From: Candidatus Mcinerneyibacteriota bacterium
Lineage (GTDB): Bacteria > AUK180 > JAQVHJ01
DNA length: 5,509 bases
NCBI GenBank assembly: GCA_030630935.1
Contig: DAOVMD010000232.1
Span: 1-5,509 of the forward strand
Direction: 5' to 3'
Both the position numbers and the translations under genes were made by a program. Below, piece after piece: positions 3 to 5,112 of the stretch. The notes under the pieces are model-generated. The model saw nothing but the letters and a program-made list of their open reading frames with translations. It was not told the origin of the DNA and did no database searches. Numbering within the stretch: the first letter of the stretch is position 1; each line of letters starts with the position of its first letter.

Positions 3-230
3 GCCTTTCTCATCTTCGTCTCATTTTTAATTTTGCCTATTATAATAGAAGTAAAACATAACGTCAATCTATTTACGATACAATCCGCTGTCAAGGTAAT
101 TACAATACATAACACTAGCAGTTTATCCCGATTCTTTCCATCGGGAAAACCCCTTTTGAGGGATTTGAGGGAGATTGTGGAGGTTTTTTACTACACTCCA
201 GAAGAAGTAGATTACCCACCTCTTCCCTAA
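3..230 (+). CDS. 3' end of an unidentified gene, truncated by the window edge
   Basis: The reading frame is open from the left edge to TAA at 228-230, so the start codon probably lies outside the window. The only internal start is a TTG at 33 without a ribosome binding site. The visible part begins with a hydrophobic stretch (AFLIFVSFLILPIII) that could be a membrane helix. It ends with a soluble tail of about 35 residues containing SSLSR, SGKP and LLRDLREIVEVFYY. I do not recognise the family. Two later spacers (2771-2866 and 3551-3613) encode a similar tail in the corresponding frame with silent third-position differences, which argues that this tail is or was translated. It could be an intact C-terminus or itself a remnant. 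Confidence is limited because only the end is visible. Confidence 0.4.
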   Translation, partial: AFLIFVSFLILPIIIEVKHNVNLFTIQSAVKVITIHNTSSLSRFFPSGKPLLRDLREIVEVFYYTPEEVDYPPLP

Positions 231-290
231 TTACTGTTCCTCATATAATGATTTAATTTGACAAATCTGATTCGGTATAGTATAATAATA
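116..290 (+). repeat. Spacer repeat, copy 1 (gene tail plus promoter)
   Basis: This copy starts at CTAGCAGTTTATCCCG and runs through the promoter. It contains a perfect hairpin, TCCCGAT (126-132) and ATCGGGA (140-146), with a 7-nt loop. It also contains AACCCCTTTTGAGGGATTT, GAGGTTTTTTACT and finally TAATTTGACA plus a TATAAT box. Copies 2 (2772-2900) and 3 (3550-3645) share these blocks. Copy 1 is about 40 bases longer between the tail and the promoter. Similarity to copy 2 fades quickly upstream of CTAGCAG, giving a fairly sharp left border. Confidence 0.7.
258..286 (+). promoter_or_regulatory. Consensus sigma70-type promoter P1
   Basis: A -35 box TTGACA (258-263) and a -10 box TATAAT (281-286) are separated by exactly 17 bases, a full match to the housekeeping consensus. 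Transcription would start near 293, giving a leader of about 20 nt before the ATG at 315. A TAAGGAG ribosome binding site lies at 303-309. It should drive the two-gene operon 315-2662. Confidence 0.85.
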
Positions 291-314
291 TTGGAATTAC
301 ATTAAGGAGTTAGT

Positions 315-1376
315 ATGAAAAAAGGAAAAATAATTGGATTCTTTATTATTATTGTATTTCTTGTCGTAGTTTTGGTTTTTATCCTTTGGATTTTTTTAGA
401 TATTGGTGATGGAGGTTGGCTCGGATATAAACTTGGATATGGACCATATAAAATGTTATTTCATCCAAAGTATAAAAAAATATTCATTTTAAAAAATGAC
501 CGAAGAACTATAGAAGTTCTTAAGGTTAATTATAGATGGGATATAGAAAAAGAACGGGAATATATATTTCAAGATGATATAAAAGATTTTTTATTCGCTA
601 AAAGTGCCAGAGGTGAATTTTGTTGTTTTATTATTCAGGACGGAAAGCTAAGTACGATAAATATTGAAAAGGGTTATGTTGATGTAATTAATAAAGATTG
701 GAGTAAATTTCAAGAGATAATCTACAATGGTCCAGAAATGCTCTTTATTGGTATTGATATGACGATAACAAGAGGTTTTTTAGGTATTAAAAAAAAATTA
801 CCAGGAAAGTATGTGGATAATTGTATTGTTAATAATCTGTCAATTTTATTATTAAAAGAAGAGAATTGCATTCTAGTTCTTGAGAGTGTAGTTAGTAGTA
901 TAAAACATCGCCCATATAAATTAGATTCAATTCCAAAGGATATAGAAGTTGATGATAAGGGTCAAATTTATGTTTTATTTGATAATGAGATTAAAGTATT
1001 TATCATTAATCCTGTAACAAATGAGGTGAAATTTATTAAGAAAATTAGGATTAAGGAAGATTTTGATGAGTTTCTGGTAACACCAAGAAGTAATGAAATA
1101 CTTGGTATCAATAAAGAAGGAATTACCAATTATGAATGGATTTATATGATTAGAAATAAAATACAATTAGCTCATGGTGAAACCAAATTTCATAATATCT
1201 TTATTTATGGTAAAAATAAACACCAATGGGATTTATTTTATTATGATGTAAAGGGAAAAGAGATAAAGATATATTGGAGTTATTCAGAGGGATACGACCA
1301 GAAAGAGTTGGAAAATTATCCACGAACAACATATTGGAAAAATAGATATGTCAAATTTGAGGATAAAGAAAAATGA
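315..1376 (+). CDS. Membrane-anchored protein of unknown function, beta-propeller-like
   Basis: This is a 353-residue protein. Residues about 6-29 form one strongly hydrophobic helix after a lysine-rich start (MKKGK), which suggests a signal anchor with the rest outside the cytoplasm. The remainder is rich in short beta-strand patterns. Residues 207-235 (PKDIEVDDKGQIYVLFDNEI and following) look like one blade of an NHL/YVTN-type beta-propeller. Weaker blade-like segments occur around 91-125 and 250-275. No catalytic motif is visible. The start is well supported: TAAGGAG lies 5 bases upstream and P1 lies just before that. The stop overlaps the next gene's start (ATGA), so the two genes are probably translationally coupled and work in the same envelope process. 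I do not recognise a named family, and the propeller call is inferred from pattern only. Confidence 0.85.
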   Translation: MKKGKIIGFFIIIVFLVVVLVFILWIFLDIGDGGWLGYKLGYGPYKMLFHPKYKKIFILKNDRRTIEVLKVNYRWDIEKEREYIFQDDIKDFLFAKSARGEFCCFIIQDGKLSTINIEKGYVDVINKDWSKFQEIIYNGPEMLFIGIDMTITRGFLGIKKKLPGKYVDNCIVNNLSILLLKEENCILVLESVVSSIKHRPYKLDSIPKDIEVDDKGQIYVLFDNEIKVFIINPVTNEVKFIKKIRIKEDFDEFLVTPRSNEILGINKEGITNYEWIYMIRNKIQLAHGETKFHNIFIYGKNKHQWDLFYYDVKGKEIKIYWSYSEGYDQKELENYPRTTYWKNRYVKFEDKEK

Positions 1377-2662
1377 AAAAACTCATCTTAACATTGTTAC
1401 TAATTTTACTCATCTTCCCTGTTGTTTATTGTGAGAATAAGGAGCTTGATGAACTGCCTGACCTTATTCCGTATAGGAAAGGAGATAAATGGGGATTCTG
1501 TGATAAGGACAAGAACATCGTGATTGAGTGTAAGTATGAAGAAATCAGACCATTTACAGGAGAAATTGCCAGAGTGAGGTTAAACGGAAAGTGGGGATTA
1601 ATAAATAAAAAGGGAGAGTTAATTACTCAAATATGTTTTGATTGGATAGAATTTCCTGAGGGGGAACTATTTCTAGTAGAGAAGGGTAAGCAAAAAGGTT
1701 TGTTTGATACTGATGGTAATGAAATTATTCCTTGTGAATATAATTGCGTTGTCCCTTGTTATAATGGAGTTATTATTGTTAAAAAAAATGACAAATATGG
1801 TTTAAGTAAAGAATCAGGTGAAATTATTATTCCGCCTAAATATAAAAGAATTAAAAAATTCAACAATGGTCTTGCCCCTGTAAAAAGATTAAATAAATGG
1901 GGTTACATAGATACTAAGGGGGAAATAGTTATTCCATTTATATTTAAAGAAGCATATAGTTTTAGAAACAATATTGCTATTGTAAAAAAAAGAAATAAAC
2001 GGGGATGCATAAATACAAAAGGTGAAATTATTATTCCAATTAAATACTGTTGTATTTATGATTTGGAAAATGGGTATTTATCTGTAGTTTATCGTAAAGG
2101 AAATGCAATAATGGATGATAAGGGGAATTTAATTGTTGAATCTAATGATAAGGTTTTTTTAGTTGTAACAGGAGGATTAGTAATTGCTCGCTATAAAAAA
2201 GAAGATAAGTTTGGAATCTTAAATTTTAAGGGAGAAGAAATTATACCTTTTAAGTATAGTATGGTTGAGAACTTTTCCGAAGATATGGCTGCGGTAGAAT
2301 TAGAAGGCAAATGGGGTTTTATCAATAATCAGGGAGAAGAAATTATACCTTTCAAGTATGGTTGGGCTGAGAGCTTTTCCGAAGGTCTCGCTGCAGTAAA
2401 ATTAGAAGGCAAATGGGGTTTTATTAATAAAAAGGGAGAAGAAGTTATACCTTTTAAGTATGATTATGCATCAGGATTTTCCAAAGGTCTTGCTTCAGTA
2501 GAATTAGAAGGCAAATGGGGTTTCATAAACAAGAGAGGTGAGGTTGTAATTTCAATAAAATACGATACTATTAAATTTCATTATGGTAATTTGATAACGG
2601 TTAAATATAATGGAAAATGGGGATTCATTGATAAGAACGGAACGGAGTACTGGGAAGATTAA
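1373..2662 (+). CDS. Secreted WG-repeat protein
   Basis: This is a 429-residue protein. Residues 1-20 (MKKLILTLLLILLIFPVVYC) are a clear Sec signal peptide. The cysteine at 20 is preceded by VVY, a poor lipobox, so a lipoprotein is possible but not favoured. The rest is twelve repeats of about 34 residues with the pattern GKWGFINKKGEEVIPFKYD..., typical of WG_beta_rep proteins. The WG or equivalent pair falls near residues 40, 74, 108, 142, 176, 210, 244, 280, 314, 348, 382 and 416. Repeats 3, 4, 6, 7 and 8 have lost the tryptophan, and the last is cut short (GTEYWED). Family members are mostly exported and of unknown molecular role, probably binding or scaffolding. GAGG at 1359-1362 lies 10 bases before the ATG. 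The start overlaps the upstream stop by ATGA, so the gene shares P1. Confidence 0.93.
   Translation: MKKLILTLLLILLIFPVVYCENKELDELPDLIPYRKGDKWGFCDKDKNIVIECKYEEIRPFTGEIARVRLNGKWGLINKKGELITQICFDWIEFPEGELFLVEKGKQKGLFDTDGNEIIPCEYNCVVPCYNGVIIVKKNDKYGLSKESGEIIIPPKYKRIKKFNNGLAPVKRLNKWGYIDTKGEIVIPFIFKEAYSFRNNIAIVKKRNKRGCINTKGEIIIPIKYCCIYDLENGYLSVVYRKGNAIMDDKGNLIVESNDKVFLVVTGGLVIARYKKEDKFGILNFKGEEIIPFKYSMVENFSEDMAAVELEGKWGFINNQGEEIIPFKYGWAESFSEGLAAVKLEGKWGFINKKGEEVIPFKYDYASGFSKGLASVELEGKWGFINKRGEVVISIKYDTIKFHYGNLITVKYNGKWGFIDKNGTEYWED
2204..2611 (+). repeat. Tandem 102-bp coding repeats inside the WG gene
   Basis: Four consecutive units begin at 2204, 2306, 2408 and 2510. The landmark TAGAAGGCAAATGGGG recurs at 2301, 2403 and 2505, exactly 102 bases (34 codons) apart. 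These C-terminal units are much more alike in DNA than the N-terminal ones. This indicates recent in-frame duplication or homogenisation at this end of the gene, and the number of units may differ between strains. Confidence 0.85.
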
Positions 2663-2770
2663 ACTCGAAACTCGTTTGAACCCCGCGAGGTTACTTTGTG
2701 GACCAATGTAGTACAATTTACAAATTTCAACTTTTCTTCATGTGTCATTACTTTCTTCCCCTTTTGCGAA

Positions 2771-2866
2771 TCTAGCAGTTTATCCCGTTGTCTATCGGGA
2801 AAACCCATTATACACGATTTACAGCAAATTATTGATGTTTTTTACTCGGATTCTGGGATATTATAA
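2771..2866 (+). pseudogene. Remnant gene tail, copy 2
   Basis: In one frame this stretch encodes SSSLSRCLSGKP followed by IIHDLQQIIDVFYSDSGIL and TAA at 2864-2866. It aligns with the tail of the left-edge ORF (SSLSRFFPSGKP, LLRDLREIVEVFYYT) with one codon deleted. Silent differences such as CGA/CGT and TTG/TTA and conservative exchanges (V/I, E/D) look like past coding selection. No start codon or ribosome binding site precedes it. The frame is open from 2663, directly after and in frame with the WG-gene stop at 2660-2662, so a former fusion or readthrough extension cannot be excluded. Confidence 0.5.
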
Positions 2867-2900
2867 TTTGACATTTTAGATTCTGTATGGTATAATATTT
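2772..2900 (+). repeat. Spacer repeat, copy 2 (gene tail plus promoter)
   Basis: It shares CTAGCAGTTTATCCCG with copy 1. It keeps the hairpin in shorter form, TCCCG (2783-2787) with CGGGA (2796-2800). It shares GATTTACAGCAAATTATT and the following TTTTACTC block with copy 3. It ends in TAATTTGACA and a TATAAT box. The rest of the 2663-2928 spacer shows only a weak CTCG/CGAG hairpin near 2671-2689 and no convincing terminator for the WG gene. Confidence 0.7.
2868..2896 (+). promoter_or_regulatory. Consensus sigma70-type promoter P2 with extended -10
   Basis: TTGACA (2868-2873) and TATAAT (2891-2896) are 17 bases apart. TGG immediately before the -10 box gives the TGn extended -10 motif, so this is the strongest-looking of the three plus-strand promoters. 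The tail's TAA stop (2864-2866) sits one base upstream of the -35 box. A start near 2903 would give a leader of about 26 nt for the gene at 2929. Confidence 0.85.
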
Positions 2901-2928
2901 ACATAAAAGCAGATGAAGTGGAGAAGAA

Positions 2929-3387
2929 ATGTCAAATCCAATAATAAGAAATTTCAGAAACTTTCTTTTAATTGTCGCTATAATTTTTTTTATTTACATC
3001 GAATTAGCAATGTACCAATATCACTTTGTTAGGGGTAATAGTTTATTATTAGCTTGCGAGGGGAATTTACGAAATCTTGGTGTTGTCGTAGAAAAATATT
3101 CAGTTGACCATAATGGACATTTTCCTCAAAACTTGAGGGTATTAGAAGAACAGATGTATTTATCTAGTTATTATCCTGTTTGTCCCGTTAAGAATCATGA
3201 ATATATTTATCAAGTAGATGGCTGGGATGATAATGATTTTACGATTTGGTGCCCAAACCCGAAGAAACATATTGGTGACAAACCATTTAGTCTAATAGGA
3301 AAATTATTCGGCAGGAAAATAAGAAAAAAGAAACATTTATATTTTCATTATAAAGAAGGATTAATTCATGTTTGGGAAAAGGAATAG
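2929..3387 (+). CDS. Pseudopilin-like membrane protein
   Basis: This is a 152-residue protein with one membrane helix at about residues 12-29 and a soluble C-terminal part. Residues 43-65 (CEGNLRNLGVVVEKYSVDHN, then GHFP) match a pattern I know from type II secretion or type IV pilin-like proteins of the prepilin cleavage/methylation group: C..NL.N.G...E.Y..D..G.FP, then a PxCP segment (VCPVK, 84-88), a Y.Y strand, and a final Y...G. Cysteines at 43, 85 and 108 could form a disulphide. Two features are unusual. The usual short leader ending in G-FTLIE is missing: FIYIEL (21-26) lies inside the helix instead of at a cleavage site. There is also a lysine-rich insert at 129-135. It may be a non-processed membrane-anchored relative. 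GGAG at 2920-2923 lies 5 bases before the ATG, and P2 drives it. Confidence 0.8.
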   Translation: MSNPIIRNFRNFLLIVAIIFFIYIELAMYQYHFVRGNSLLLACEGNLRNLGVVVEKYSVDHNGHFPQNLRVLEEQMYLSSYYPVCPVKNHEYIYQVDGWDDNDFTIWCPNPKKHIGDKPFSLIGKLFGRKIRKKKHLYFHYKEGLIHVWEKE

Positions 3388-3426
3388 ACTTAACCGATAC
3401 TAAAGAAGAAATTCTATATTCGATAT

Positions 3427-3485
3427 AAAGTCGAAAGAGTTAGGGTGCCAACCTATGACTTATGACTTTCTATTCCCCTTTTTTT
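3427..3485 (+). terminator. Possible terminator of the 2929-3387 gene
   Basis: An outer stem AAAGTC (3427-3432) with GACTTT (3464-3469) encloses an inner stem TAGG (3441-3444) with CCTA (3452-3455). About ten bases later comes a run of seven T (3479-3485). The stem is interrupted and the T-run is set back, so the call is weak. A second hairpin follows at 3490-3514 (AAAGAATTAC with GTAATATCTTT, one bulge). Confidence 0.35.
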
Positions 3486-3550
3486 AAGAAAAGAATTACA
3501 TAGGTAATATCTTTCAGAGATAGGGTGTTGGTCCTTTACTTTTTTCTTAA

Positions 3551-3613
3551 CCCCTTTTGAGGGATTTACAACAAATTATTGAGGTTTTCTACTCTGATTC
3601 AAAGACAATATAA
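3551..3613 (+). pseudogene. Remnant gene tail, copy 3
   Basis: This stretch encodes PLLRDLQQIIEVFYSDSKTI and TAA (3611-3613), in frame and collinear with copies 1 and 2. The SSLSR/SGKP part is absent and a TAA (3548-3550) stands directly before the first proline codon, so this copy cannot be expressed from upstream. Against copy 2, the codon pairs CAG/CAA, TTT/TTC, TCG/TCT and TCT/TCA are all silent changes. Confidence 0.5.
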
Positions 3614-3614
3614 T

Positions 3615-3643
3615 TTGACAAATTAGAACAATTGTAGTATAAT
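3615..3643 (+). promoter_or_regulatory. Consensus sigma70-type promoter P3 without a downstream gene
   Basis: TTGACA (3615-3620) and TATAAT (3638-3643) have a 17-base spacer. Transcription would begin near 3650 and run into the hairpin at 3705-3738. No gene follows on this strand apart from a five-codon ORF, so this is either a promoter whose gene was lost or the start of a short RNA. Confidence 0.75.
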
Positions 3644-3672
3644 ATTATAAGATTAAAATCAAGGATCGGGAC

Positions 3673-3690
3673 ATGAACCAGAAAATTTAA
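3673..3690 (+). other. Five-codon mini-ORF behind P3
   Basis: AAGGA (3661-3665) lies 7 bases before ATG at 3673, and the frame MNQKI ends at TAA 3688-3690. Promoter, leader length and ribosome binding site are all well formed, like those of the two real genes behind P1 and P2, but nothing follows. It may be the surviving 5' edge of a deleted gene. A leader peptide is an alternative. Confidence 0.3.
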
Positions 3691-3738: not shown

Positions 3739-3762
3739 GGCTCTATACTATCATAATAGTAC
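3701..3762 (-). ncRNA. Candidate small RNA of about 60 nt
   Basis: A minus-strand extended -10 promoter (3769-3798) and a strong minus-strand terminator (3698-3738) bracket a segment too short for a gene. The predicted RNA would start near 3762. It would form a small hairpin ACTAT-TATG-ATAGT (3760-3747), then a single-stranded linker containing AGAGCCAAAC, then the terminator stem. It is antisense to the last part of any transcript from P3. The target and role are unknown, and existence is inferred from the signals only. Confidence 0.4.
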
Positions 3763-3768
3763 ATCAAT

Positions 3769-3798
3769 ATTATAACAGAAAACTGACAAAAAAGTCAA
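3769..3798 (-). promoter_or_regulatory. Minus-strand sigma70-type promoter with extended -10
   Basis: On the minus strand TTGACT (3798-3793) and TATAAT (3774-3769) are 18 bases apart, with TGT directly before the -10 box. The predicted start is near 3762. There is no coding frame of useful length downstream before the terminator at 3738-3698. Confidence 0.65.
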
Positions 3799-3800
3799 GA

Positions 3801-3825
3801 GAATTTACATCTATAGTGTAAATTC
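3801..3825. promoter_or_regulatory. 9-bp dyad, possible operator
   Basis: GAATTTACA (3801-3809) and TGTAAATTC (3817-3825) form a perfect inverted repeat with a 7-base centre. It ends two bases upstream of the minus-strand -35 box, a usual place for an activator or repressor site. The binding protein is unknown. Confidence 0.4.
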
Positions 3826-3840
3826 AGATAGTATAGAGCC

Positions 3841-3993: not shown

Positions 3994-5112
3994 TTAATAA
4001 TTTCTCCAGTCATACTTTTTAGGAATTTTGGGAAGAATTTTTTCCTTAAATCGATTCAAGTTTGTTCTTGAAAGAATATCATTATGTTGAAGGATTCCAA
4101 CTATAATTGATGGATGCACTTTGTATTTTTCTTTACACATTAATATTTTTAATTTAGAAATATACTTTGTGTTTGATCTGAAGAAGTTCATTATAGCTTT
4201 TTCTTTTAGAAGACTTAGAGCTTTTGCATTTGACTCAGATTCCTTATGTGTATTAATCTCTTTGATATTATCAATGAAAAAAGTTTCTTTTTTATTCAGG
4301 TGCAATAACACGTGTGCTAATTCATGAGCCATTGTGAACCAAAAATTATCCAATCGATTATATCTTCCGGTATATACTATAACCTTATTCACACCTTCTG
4401 TATAAACAGCCCCGTCAATATAAGTTTTTTGCAGGTGCGGTAATACTAAGAATTTTATTCCAGCTTGATTCAAGTCTTCAAGAAATTGCTGCACACCATT
4501 ACTTTCAATAGTATAATAATTGAAATCCTTAATAATTTCTTTTAATCTTCGATTAGAGTATTTGCCTACCTTTATTTTCTTCGAAATCTTCTTTGCCATG
4601 TTTAACCAGGTTAATGTGAAATAAAGATTGAACTGATTGTAAGCGGTGGATTTTCTCAAACTTGGTATTAATTTTTTATCCAAAAACTTAAAATCCAGTG
4701 CTTTAATACCCCAAAATTTTTTAACTATCCGGATTAGGTCTTTGGTGTCAGAAAAATCAGGGATCCAACCTTTCTTTATCATCTCCATTATGGGCATATA
4801 TTGATAAATATATGACCGAATCTCTGCCGACCTCGCTTTTTTATTCTCCTTCTCCAAACCCAAACGAAACAAAGTATCTAAGTTTATCCAATATTCTGTT
4901 GACTGTCCAAAAATCTTTCCCAATGCCTGGGCTACATCGAATGTTATGTGTTGCTTGTTATTTAAGATTAAACTTACATGTTTGGGATCCAGCATTAGAA
5001 TCAAAGATAAATCACCCTGAGTCCAACCTCTATACTCGAGCTCATCTTTTATGAAATCCCCCGGACCAATATTTTTCATCTTATCTAAACTTGAAATCAT
5101 TTTAGTCTCCAT
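3994..5112 (-). CDS. HigA-type XRE regulator fused to an ImmA/IrrE-type metallopeptidase domain
   Basis: This is a 372-residue protein. Residues about 16-79 are a helix-turn-helix domain of the HigA antitoxin/XRE type (GPGDFIKDELEYRGWTQGDL, then VSLILNNKQHITFDVAQAL). Residues about 215-340 match ImmA/IrrE peptidases. The zinc motif is MAHELAHVLLH, with ligands H263 and H267 and catalytic E264. The region ESESNA (291-296) probably supplies the third ligand. The ending HPSIIVGILQH (333-343) is usual for this two-domain family. Such proteins typically act as antitoxins or as DNA-binding sensors that cleave a partner repressor. No toxin gene lies beside it, although higB is usually directly upstream. 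The start is uncertain. The first ATG (5112) lacks a nearby Shine-Dalgarno, whereas the ATG at 5100 has GGAG six bases upstream, giving 368 residues. Confidence 0.9.
   Translation of the reverse strand: METKMISSLDKMKNIGPGDFIKDELEYRGWTQGDLSLILMLDPKHVSLILNNKQHITFDVAQALGKIFGQSTEYWINLDTLFRLGLEKENKKARSAEIRSYIYQYMPIMEMIKKGWIPDFSDTKDLIRIVKKFWGIKALDFKFLDKKLIPSLRKSTAYNQFNLYFTLTWLNMAKKISKKIKVGKYSNRRLKEIIKDFNYYTIESNGVQQFLEDLNQAGIKFLVLPHLQKTYIDGAVYTEGVNKVIVYTGRYNRLDNFWFTMAHELAHVLLHLNKKETFFIDNIKEINTHKESESNAKALSLLKEKAIMNFFRSNTKYISKLKILMCKEKYKVHPSIIVGILQHNDILSRTNLNRFKEKILPKIPKKYDWRNY

Follow-up and report, generated by a model that had tools for sequence, protein, structure and literature searches.

REP, BOX and ERIC elements are intergenic repeats of bacteria, and in the vsp-type families of mycoplasmas, surface proteins share a common promoter and signal-peptide cassette. 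The nearest described process to the one considered here is horizontal regulatory transfer, whereby recombination replaces an intergenic region independently of the genes under its control, as outlined in PMC5890482, which cites the original work on E. coli.

Here we analyze repeated intergenic blocks in a 5,509-nt stretch of DNA (hereinafter the window), which is the whole of contig C20 (DAOVMD010000232.1) in the draft genome of Candidatus Mcinerneyibacteriota bacterium (GCA_030630935.1; 3.16 Mb, 471 contigs). An initial annotation of the window described three such blocks as the tail of a protein-coding gene joined to a consensus promoter, forming a conserved junction behind which unrelated genes are exchanged; of these two ideas, the junction holds better than the gene tail. 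The reading that we favor, with a probability of roughly 0.6, is that the blocks belong to intergenic islands, that is, recombining regions with a promoter and an upstream element that would serve genes for exported proteins, with cargo genes exchanged or lost behind them and the surviving ones comprising a candidate regulon.

A lineage-restricted family of promoter units

Self-alignment of the window confirms that the three blocks (116-290, 2772-2900 and 3549-3646) are homologous, with gap-free pairwise identity of approximately 68-76%, and in a whole-genome search, the relationship is far above chance (E 1e-13 and 4e-7). The promoters reported at the ends of the blocks are there as well, all three matching TTGACA-17-TATAAT at 12/12 positions (Table 1), with the -35 and -10 hexamers and the 17-nt spacing of the sigma70 type, from which we infer sigma70-type promoter activity of the copies. 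Two more full copies are present on contig C383, where copy A precedes a WG-repeat gene and copy B lies behind the same gene. Shorter copies, which share the promoter and 10-80 nt upstream, were detected at positions 172, 3162 and 5096 of contig C121 and at position 3925 of contig C341, along with a weak copy at 5982 of the latter. A sequence-model search of the genome recovered seven strong copies, two long-form promoters and one weak copy; altogether, the promoter unit is represented by about nine to ten copies, each of which points into a gene start or a gene stump. The same search found no convincing copy in six other genomes of the class: the promoter unit is a lineage-restricted family.

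The multiple copies, the hairpin in the left half of the block and the outward promoter are features that a small, MITE-like mobile element carrying a promoter could display. However, the alignments of the copies contain neither terminal inverted repeats nor target duplications, the left ends of the blocks vary from copy to copy, and the sequences flanking the hairpin are different at its other sites in the genome; we therefore rejected this origin as highly improbable.

The copies come in distinct forms. In the long-form copy at 116, the frame stops at 228-230, and both long-form copies carry approximately 46 extra nt between the conserved upstream element and the -35 hexamer; the copy at 3550 is devoid of the hairpin and the first 11 codons and retains only the last 20. 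The supposed tail was thought to run through a junction sequence into the promoter in every copy. This is the case for the two short forms, in which the stop codon runs into TAATTTGACA, but not for the long form at 116, which stops about 28 nt before the -35 hexamer.

Table 1. Coordinates of the features discussed (positions in the window).
Feature	Position	Strand	Evidence
Hairpin TCCCGAT-TCTTTCC-ATCGGGA (126-146) with flanks; left half of the block, SSLSRFFPSGK in the initially annotated frame	116..147	+	Hairpin count
Right half of the 'tail', long form (PLLRDLREIVEVFYYTPEEVDYPPLP stop)	148..230	+	86% identity to C383 copy A
Linker, promoter TTGACA-17-TATAAT (258-286), leader start; end of island 1	231..293	+	C383 identity ends at 293
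353-aa protein, N-terminal membrane helix, no family; between promoter island and signal-peptide island	315..1376	+	Translation, C383 comparison
Signal-peptide island, start of the WG gene	1353..1537	+	Common to C383 (88%) and C461 (82%); first 70 nt C121 (87%)
WG-repeat exported protein, 429 aa	1373..2662	+	Pfam PF14903, E 1.8e-104; 40% identical to C383 copy
Non-coding spacer after the WG gene	2663..2771	+	~90% identity to C383
Hairpin (stem shortened) and short-form 'tail', stop TAA 2864-2866	2772..2866	+	Block alignment
Conserved element of ~30 nt directly upstream of -35 (TTTTTTACTCGGATTCTGGGATATTATAAT)	2837..2867	+	78-82% identity, five copies
Promoter TTGACA-17-TATAAT	2868..2896	+	12/12 match
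152-aa pilin-derived membrane protein (GNLRNLG..DHNGHFPQNL)	2929..3387	+	37-43% identical to C121 and C461 proteins
Third 'tail' copy, short, without hairpin; stop TAA 3611-3613	3549..3613	+	Block alignment
Promoter TTGACA-17-TATAAT, no gene behind	3615..3643	+	12/12 match
Start of five codons, ATGAACCAGAAAATTTAA (MNQKI), that may remain from a lost pilin-type gene	3673..3690	+	Sequence; inference

The open frame within the block

In all five tail copies (three in the window and two on C383), the frame is open and encodes peptides of the type SSLSRFFPSGKPL(L/I)(R/H)DL...FY..., with the position of the stop codon conserved and TGA replacing TAA in one copy. The peptides read as originally annotated, except that the copy at 116 is the long form and the copy at 3550 lacks its first 11 codons. 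The open frame with its retained stop is compatible with the block being the decayed 3' end of a lost protein-coding gene that was duplicated together with the promoter that follows, and so is an excess of variable columns in the third codon position (14/8/18 by codon position, permutation p 0.022, five copies). A potential relative is the HEPN-domain gene (PF05168) at C121:4692-5114, the 3' end of which, LLREIV*MFY, shares the frame of LREIVEVFY in the tail, with silent AGA/AGG and GAA/GAG differences; the resemblance is in register with the same promoter and significant compared to random genome windows (p 0.005), but it spans only 28 nt. The HEPN gene is paired with a nucleotidyltransferase gene, the product of which includes an N-terminal MarR-like part; the pair (locus L036 on C121, 4147-5114) is of the toxin-antitoxin type, and its end adjoins a copy of the promoter unit.

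Several lines of evidence make such a gene relic unlikely. No full-length gene with this tail was found in the same genome, 59 relatives, the GTDB species genomes, IMG/VR, phages or plasmids, and the tail peptides have no family match in Pfam or NCBIfam. When the C341 and C121 copies are added, the third-position excess fades, with counts of 12/8/11 in the short-form group (p 0.47) and 17/10/20 for all seven copies (p 0.12). The lack of a full-length gene and an even spread over codon positions were named in the initial annotation as favoring a non-coding repeat; the former holds in the genomes searched, and the latter largely does. The silent differences originally taken as the mark of protein-level selection do exist, but they are no convincing evidence of such selection: an antisense frame that contains stops has equally many synonymous differences. 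Furthermore, between the window copy at 2772 and C383 copy B, the tail differs at 11 of about 90 sites (~12%), which equals the divergence of the adjoining non-coding spacer (~11%). The gene-tail interpretation is weak, and the open frame most likely is incidental rather than a real gene end; more generally, an open frame common to repeated intergenic DNA need not be the relic of a gene. A small antisense protein (2659-2808, minus strand) was considered and rejected as well: most of the changes between the window and C383 alter the amino acid, and in one of the copies, a stop interrupts the frame.

The left half of the tail also argues against a gene end. Codons 4-10 coincide with a TCCCGAT..ATCGGGA hairpin, and exact hairpins of this kind occur 40 times in the genome, compared to 0 for a control pattern, most of them with flanks other than those of the block. 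This genome-wide family (TCCCGAT-N4..14-ATCGGGA, 40 sites) includes several members with common flanks, for example, CAGCAGGTCGACGAACAGAGAGAGGAGA..GAACTGAAGAGAAC. No credible Rfam match was obtained for the window. Because the hairpin at 2772 resembles a tRNA on contig C33, an origin from an anticodon arm was considered, and it was rejected given that the match is limited to the hairpin and the window contains no tRNA. A tRNA-like gene with an anticodon loop of eight bases (ARAGORN anticodon gtct, type unknown) is located on C33 (locus L144, 1474-1548), between tRNA-Val and a normal tRNA-Asp; it may have decayed from another copy or might decode four bases.

A conserved element upstream of the -35 hexamer

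The 30 nt that precede the -35 hexamer are 78-82% identical among five short-form copies, whereas identity over the initial 14 nt of the promoter spacer in these copies is 36%, compared to the 33% that composition predicts. Selection acting on the upstream segment accounts for its retention next to an effectively random spacer and suggests a candidate regulatory element. Alternatively, a recombination boundary could lie near the -35 hexamer; however, the shared starts of the promoter spacer (AAATT, TTTTA) track the version of the upstream sequence, which mildly disfavors a sharp boundary at this point. The approximately 46 extra nt in both long-form copies are hard to fit with a simple activator site. 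If the element is regulatory, the conserved 30 nt might bind the alpha subunits of RNA polymerase or an activator, and such binding would make the island copies a small regulon.

Islands conserved beyond the genes that they flank

The window and C383 share the order block A, WG gene, block B, and the 353-aa gene inserted between block A and the WG gene is present in the window only. High DNA identity between the two loci is confined to islands: 86% over 115-293 (block A), ending at 293; 88% over 1353-1537 (the start of the WG gene with the signal peptide); and 85% over 2600-2898 (the end of the WG gene, the spacer and block B). Between the islands, in the gene core, it drops to approximately 45-65%, and the WG proteins are 40% identical. 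Over the last 23 codons of the WG genes, synonymous sites have reached saturation, as they largely have in the core (pS 0.5-0.8), and dS is 0.48 in the first 55 codons, compared to the 85-90% identity of the promoter, hairpin and spacer. Given that identity is about 90% in the spacer that begins right behind the stop codon, next to saturated synonymous sites, the intergenic DNA is younger than the flanking genes, homogenized, or far more constrained. If the entire spacer were under strong constraint at the DNA level, the same contrast in identity could arise without exchange.

The site patterns among the five copies conflict, 5 sites pairing the copy at 116 with that at 3550 and 9 sites pairing it with C383 copy A, so the copies have recombined, as judged from copies within one genome, the sole one of its genus among the genomes searched. 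A mosaic of copies and an island conserved beyond its flanking genes are what a recombining junction is expected to leave. Together with the loss of cargo behind the copy at 3550, these observations bear out the initial proposal that a duplicated unit serves as a conserved junction with differing genes behind it.

A simpler scenario includes only segmental duplication of the promoter region, conserved through its function as a regulated promoter, with no exchange of cassettes. The conserved element upstream of the -35 hexamer fits this scenario, as does the fact that four of the five tail copies trace to a single arrangement, block A - WG - block B, that was duplicated. It is at odds, however, with the mosaic site patterns, the insertion of the 353-aa gene between two islands, and the orphan promoter and broken signal-peptide start described below, and we consider it possible but rather unlikely.

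Cargo genes

The genes behind the unit belong to a few families. WG-repeat proteins are found behind C383 copy A and the C341 copy, and pilin-derived proteins behind the window copy at 2772 and at C121:3231 and C121:5200; other cargo includes the 353-aa protein behind the copy at 116, a 762-aa protein (C121:256), a 500-aa protein (C341) and, behind C383 copy B, an exported protein truncated where the contig ends. The copy at 3550 is followed by no gene, only by the five codons of ATGAACCAGAAAATTTAA, which can be compared with the starts of the pilin-type paralogs, MNEI or MNNI. The statement that different genes follow each copy applies to those copies in the window that are followed by a gene, with the WG-repeat and pilin-derived families recurring elsewhere. 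In every cargo protein checked, the N-terminus is strongly hydrophobic, being either a signal peptide or a membrane helix; because the cargo families are few, this association with exported proteins is not independent across copies.

The pilin-derived proteins (window 2929-3387; L036 3231-3977 and 5200-5952; L037 5880-6335) have lost the prepilin signal and kept a C-terminal GNLRNLG/HGHYPQNL region, which in some cases is duplicated within one protein. The family was recognized by way of a MAG STE_202 relative, which starts like a classical prepilin and adjoins a prepilin-peptidase-like gene and pilus-assembly-like genes; the pilin-derived designation, including that of these neighbors, is our reading of the sequences rather than a database match.

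On C121, the signal-peptide start of the WG gene is found in front of a carboxypeptidase-regulatory-like domain, and on contig C461, in front of another protein; also on C461 (L037, 8010-8100), a broken copy of this start (KKLILIFLLIILIFPVV stop) is located right behind the end of a WG gene. The orphan promoter at 3615, the broken start on C461 and the signal-peptide start in front of differing domains resemble traces left by cargo that was gained and lost.

Downstream in the window, a 372-aa protein encoded on the minus strand (3994-5112) combines a HigA-type helix-turn-helix with an IrrE-like peptidase domain (M78), an architecture of the antitoxin or repressor type, and has no obvious toxin partner within the window. 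At 3740-3840, a 14-bp inverted repeat (GGCTCTATACTATC / GATAGTATAGAGCC, about 74 nt apart) adjoins a strong minus-strand hairpin (3734-3709) that resembles a terminator.

A model of island evolution

Under the favored reading, the repeated unit is an intergenic island that consists of a non-coding spacer, the hairpin, the upstream element and a putative sigma70-type promoter. Copies of the promoter region would have spread by segmental duplication and been kept alike by recombination. If the islands act as tracts of homologous recombination or gene conversion, genes and gene cores could be exchanged, gained and lost while the cargo keeps the same promoter. A stronger version, in which exchange recurs at the islands (promoter, signal-peptide start, and gene end with spacer) as part of a modular system that diversifies exported proteins by swapping WG-repeat, pilin-derived and other cores under one promoter and upstream element, appears quite doubtful.

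As for the recombining islands as such, in this one genome of an uncultured lineage, intergenic promoter DNA has recombined and is much better conserved than the surrounding genes. The analysis singles out a defined stretch of 30 nt as a candidate regulatory element, and the exported proteins behind the islands as a candidate regulon.

Comparison with known systems

In the literature on WG-repeat promoters and duplicated promoters, we found nothing close to this arrangement. Like REP, BOX and ERIC, the TCCCGAT..ATCGGGA hairpin is a repeat dispersed between genes (40 sites), but unlike these repeats, the promoter unit has only about nine to ten copies and is always aimed at a gene start or stump. 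The likeness to the mycoplasma vsp-type families lies in a shared promoter and leader before diverging mature parts; no inverting recombination site, silent copies or phase variation were demonstrated for the islands, and several unrelated cargo families are involved here. With horizontal regulatory transfer, or switched intergenic regions, as presented in PMC5890482, the islands share intergenic DNA that recombines independently of genes; that process is a switch between strains at one locus, whereas here the copies compared reside within one genome.
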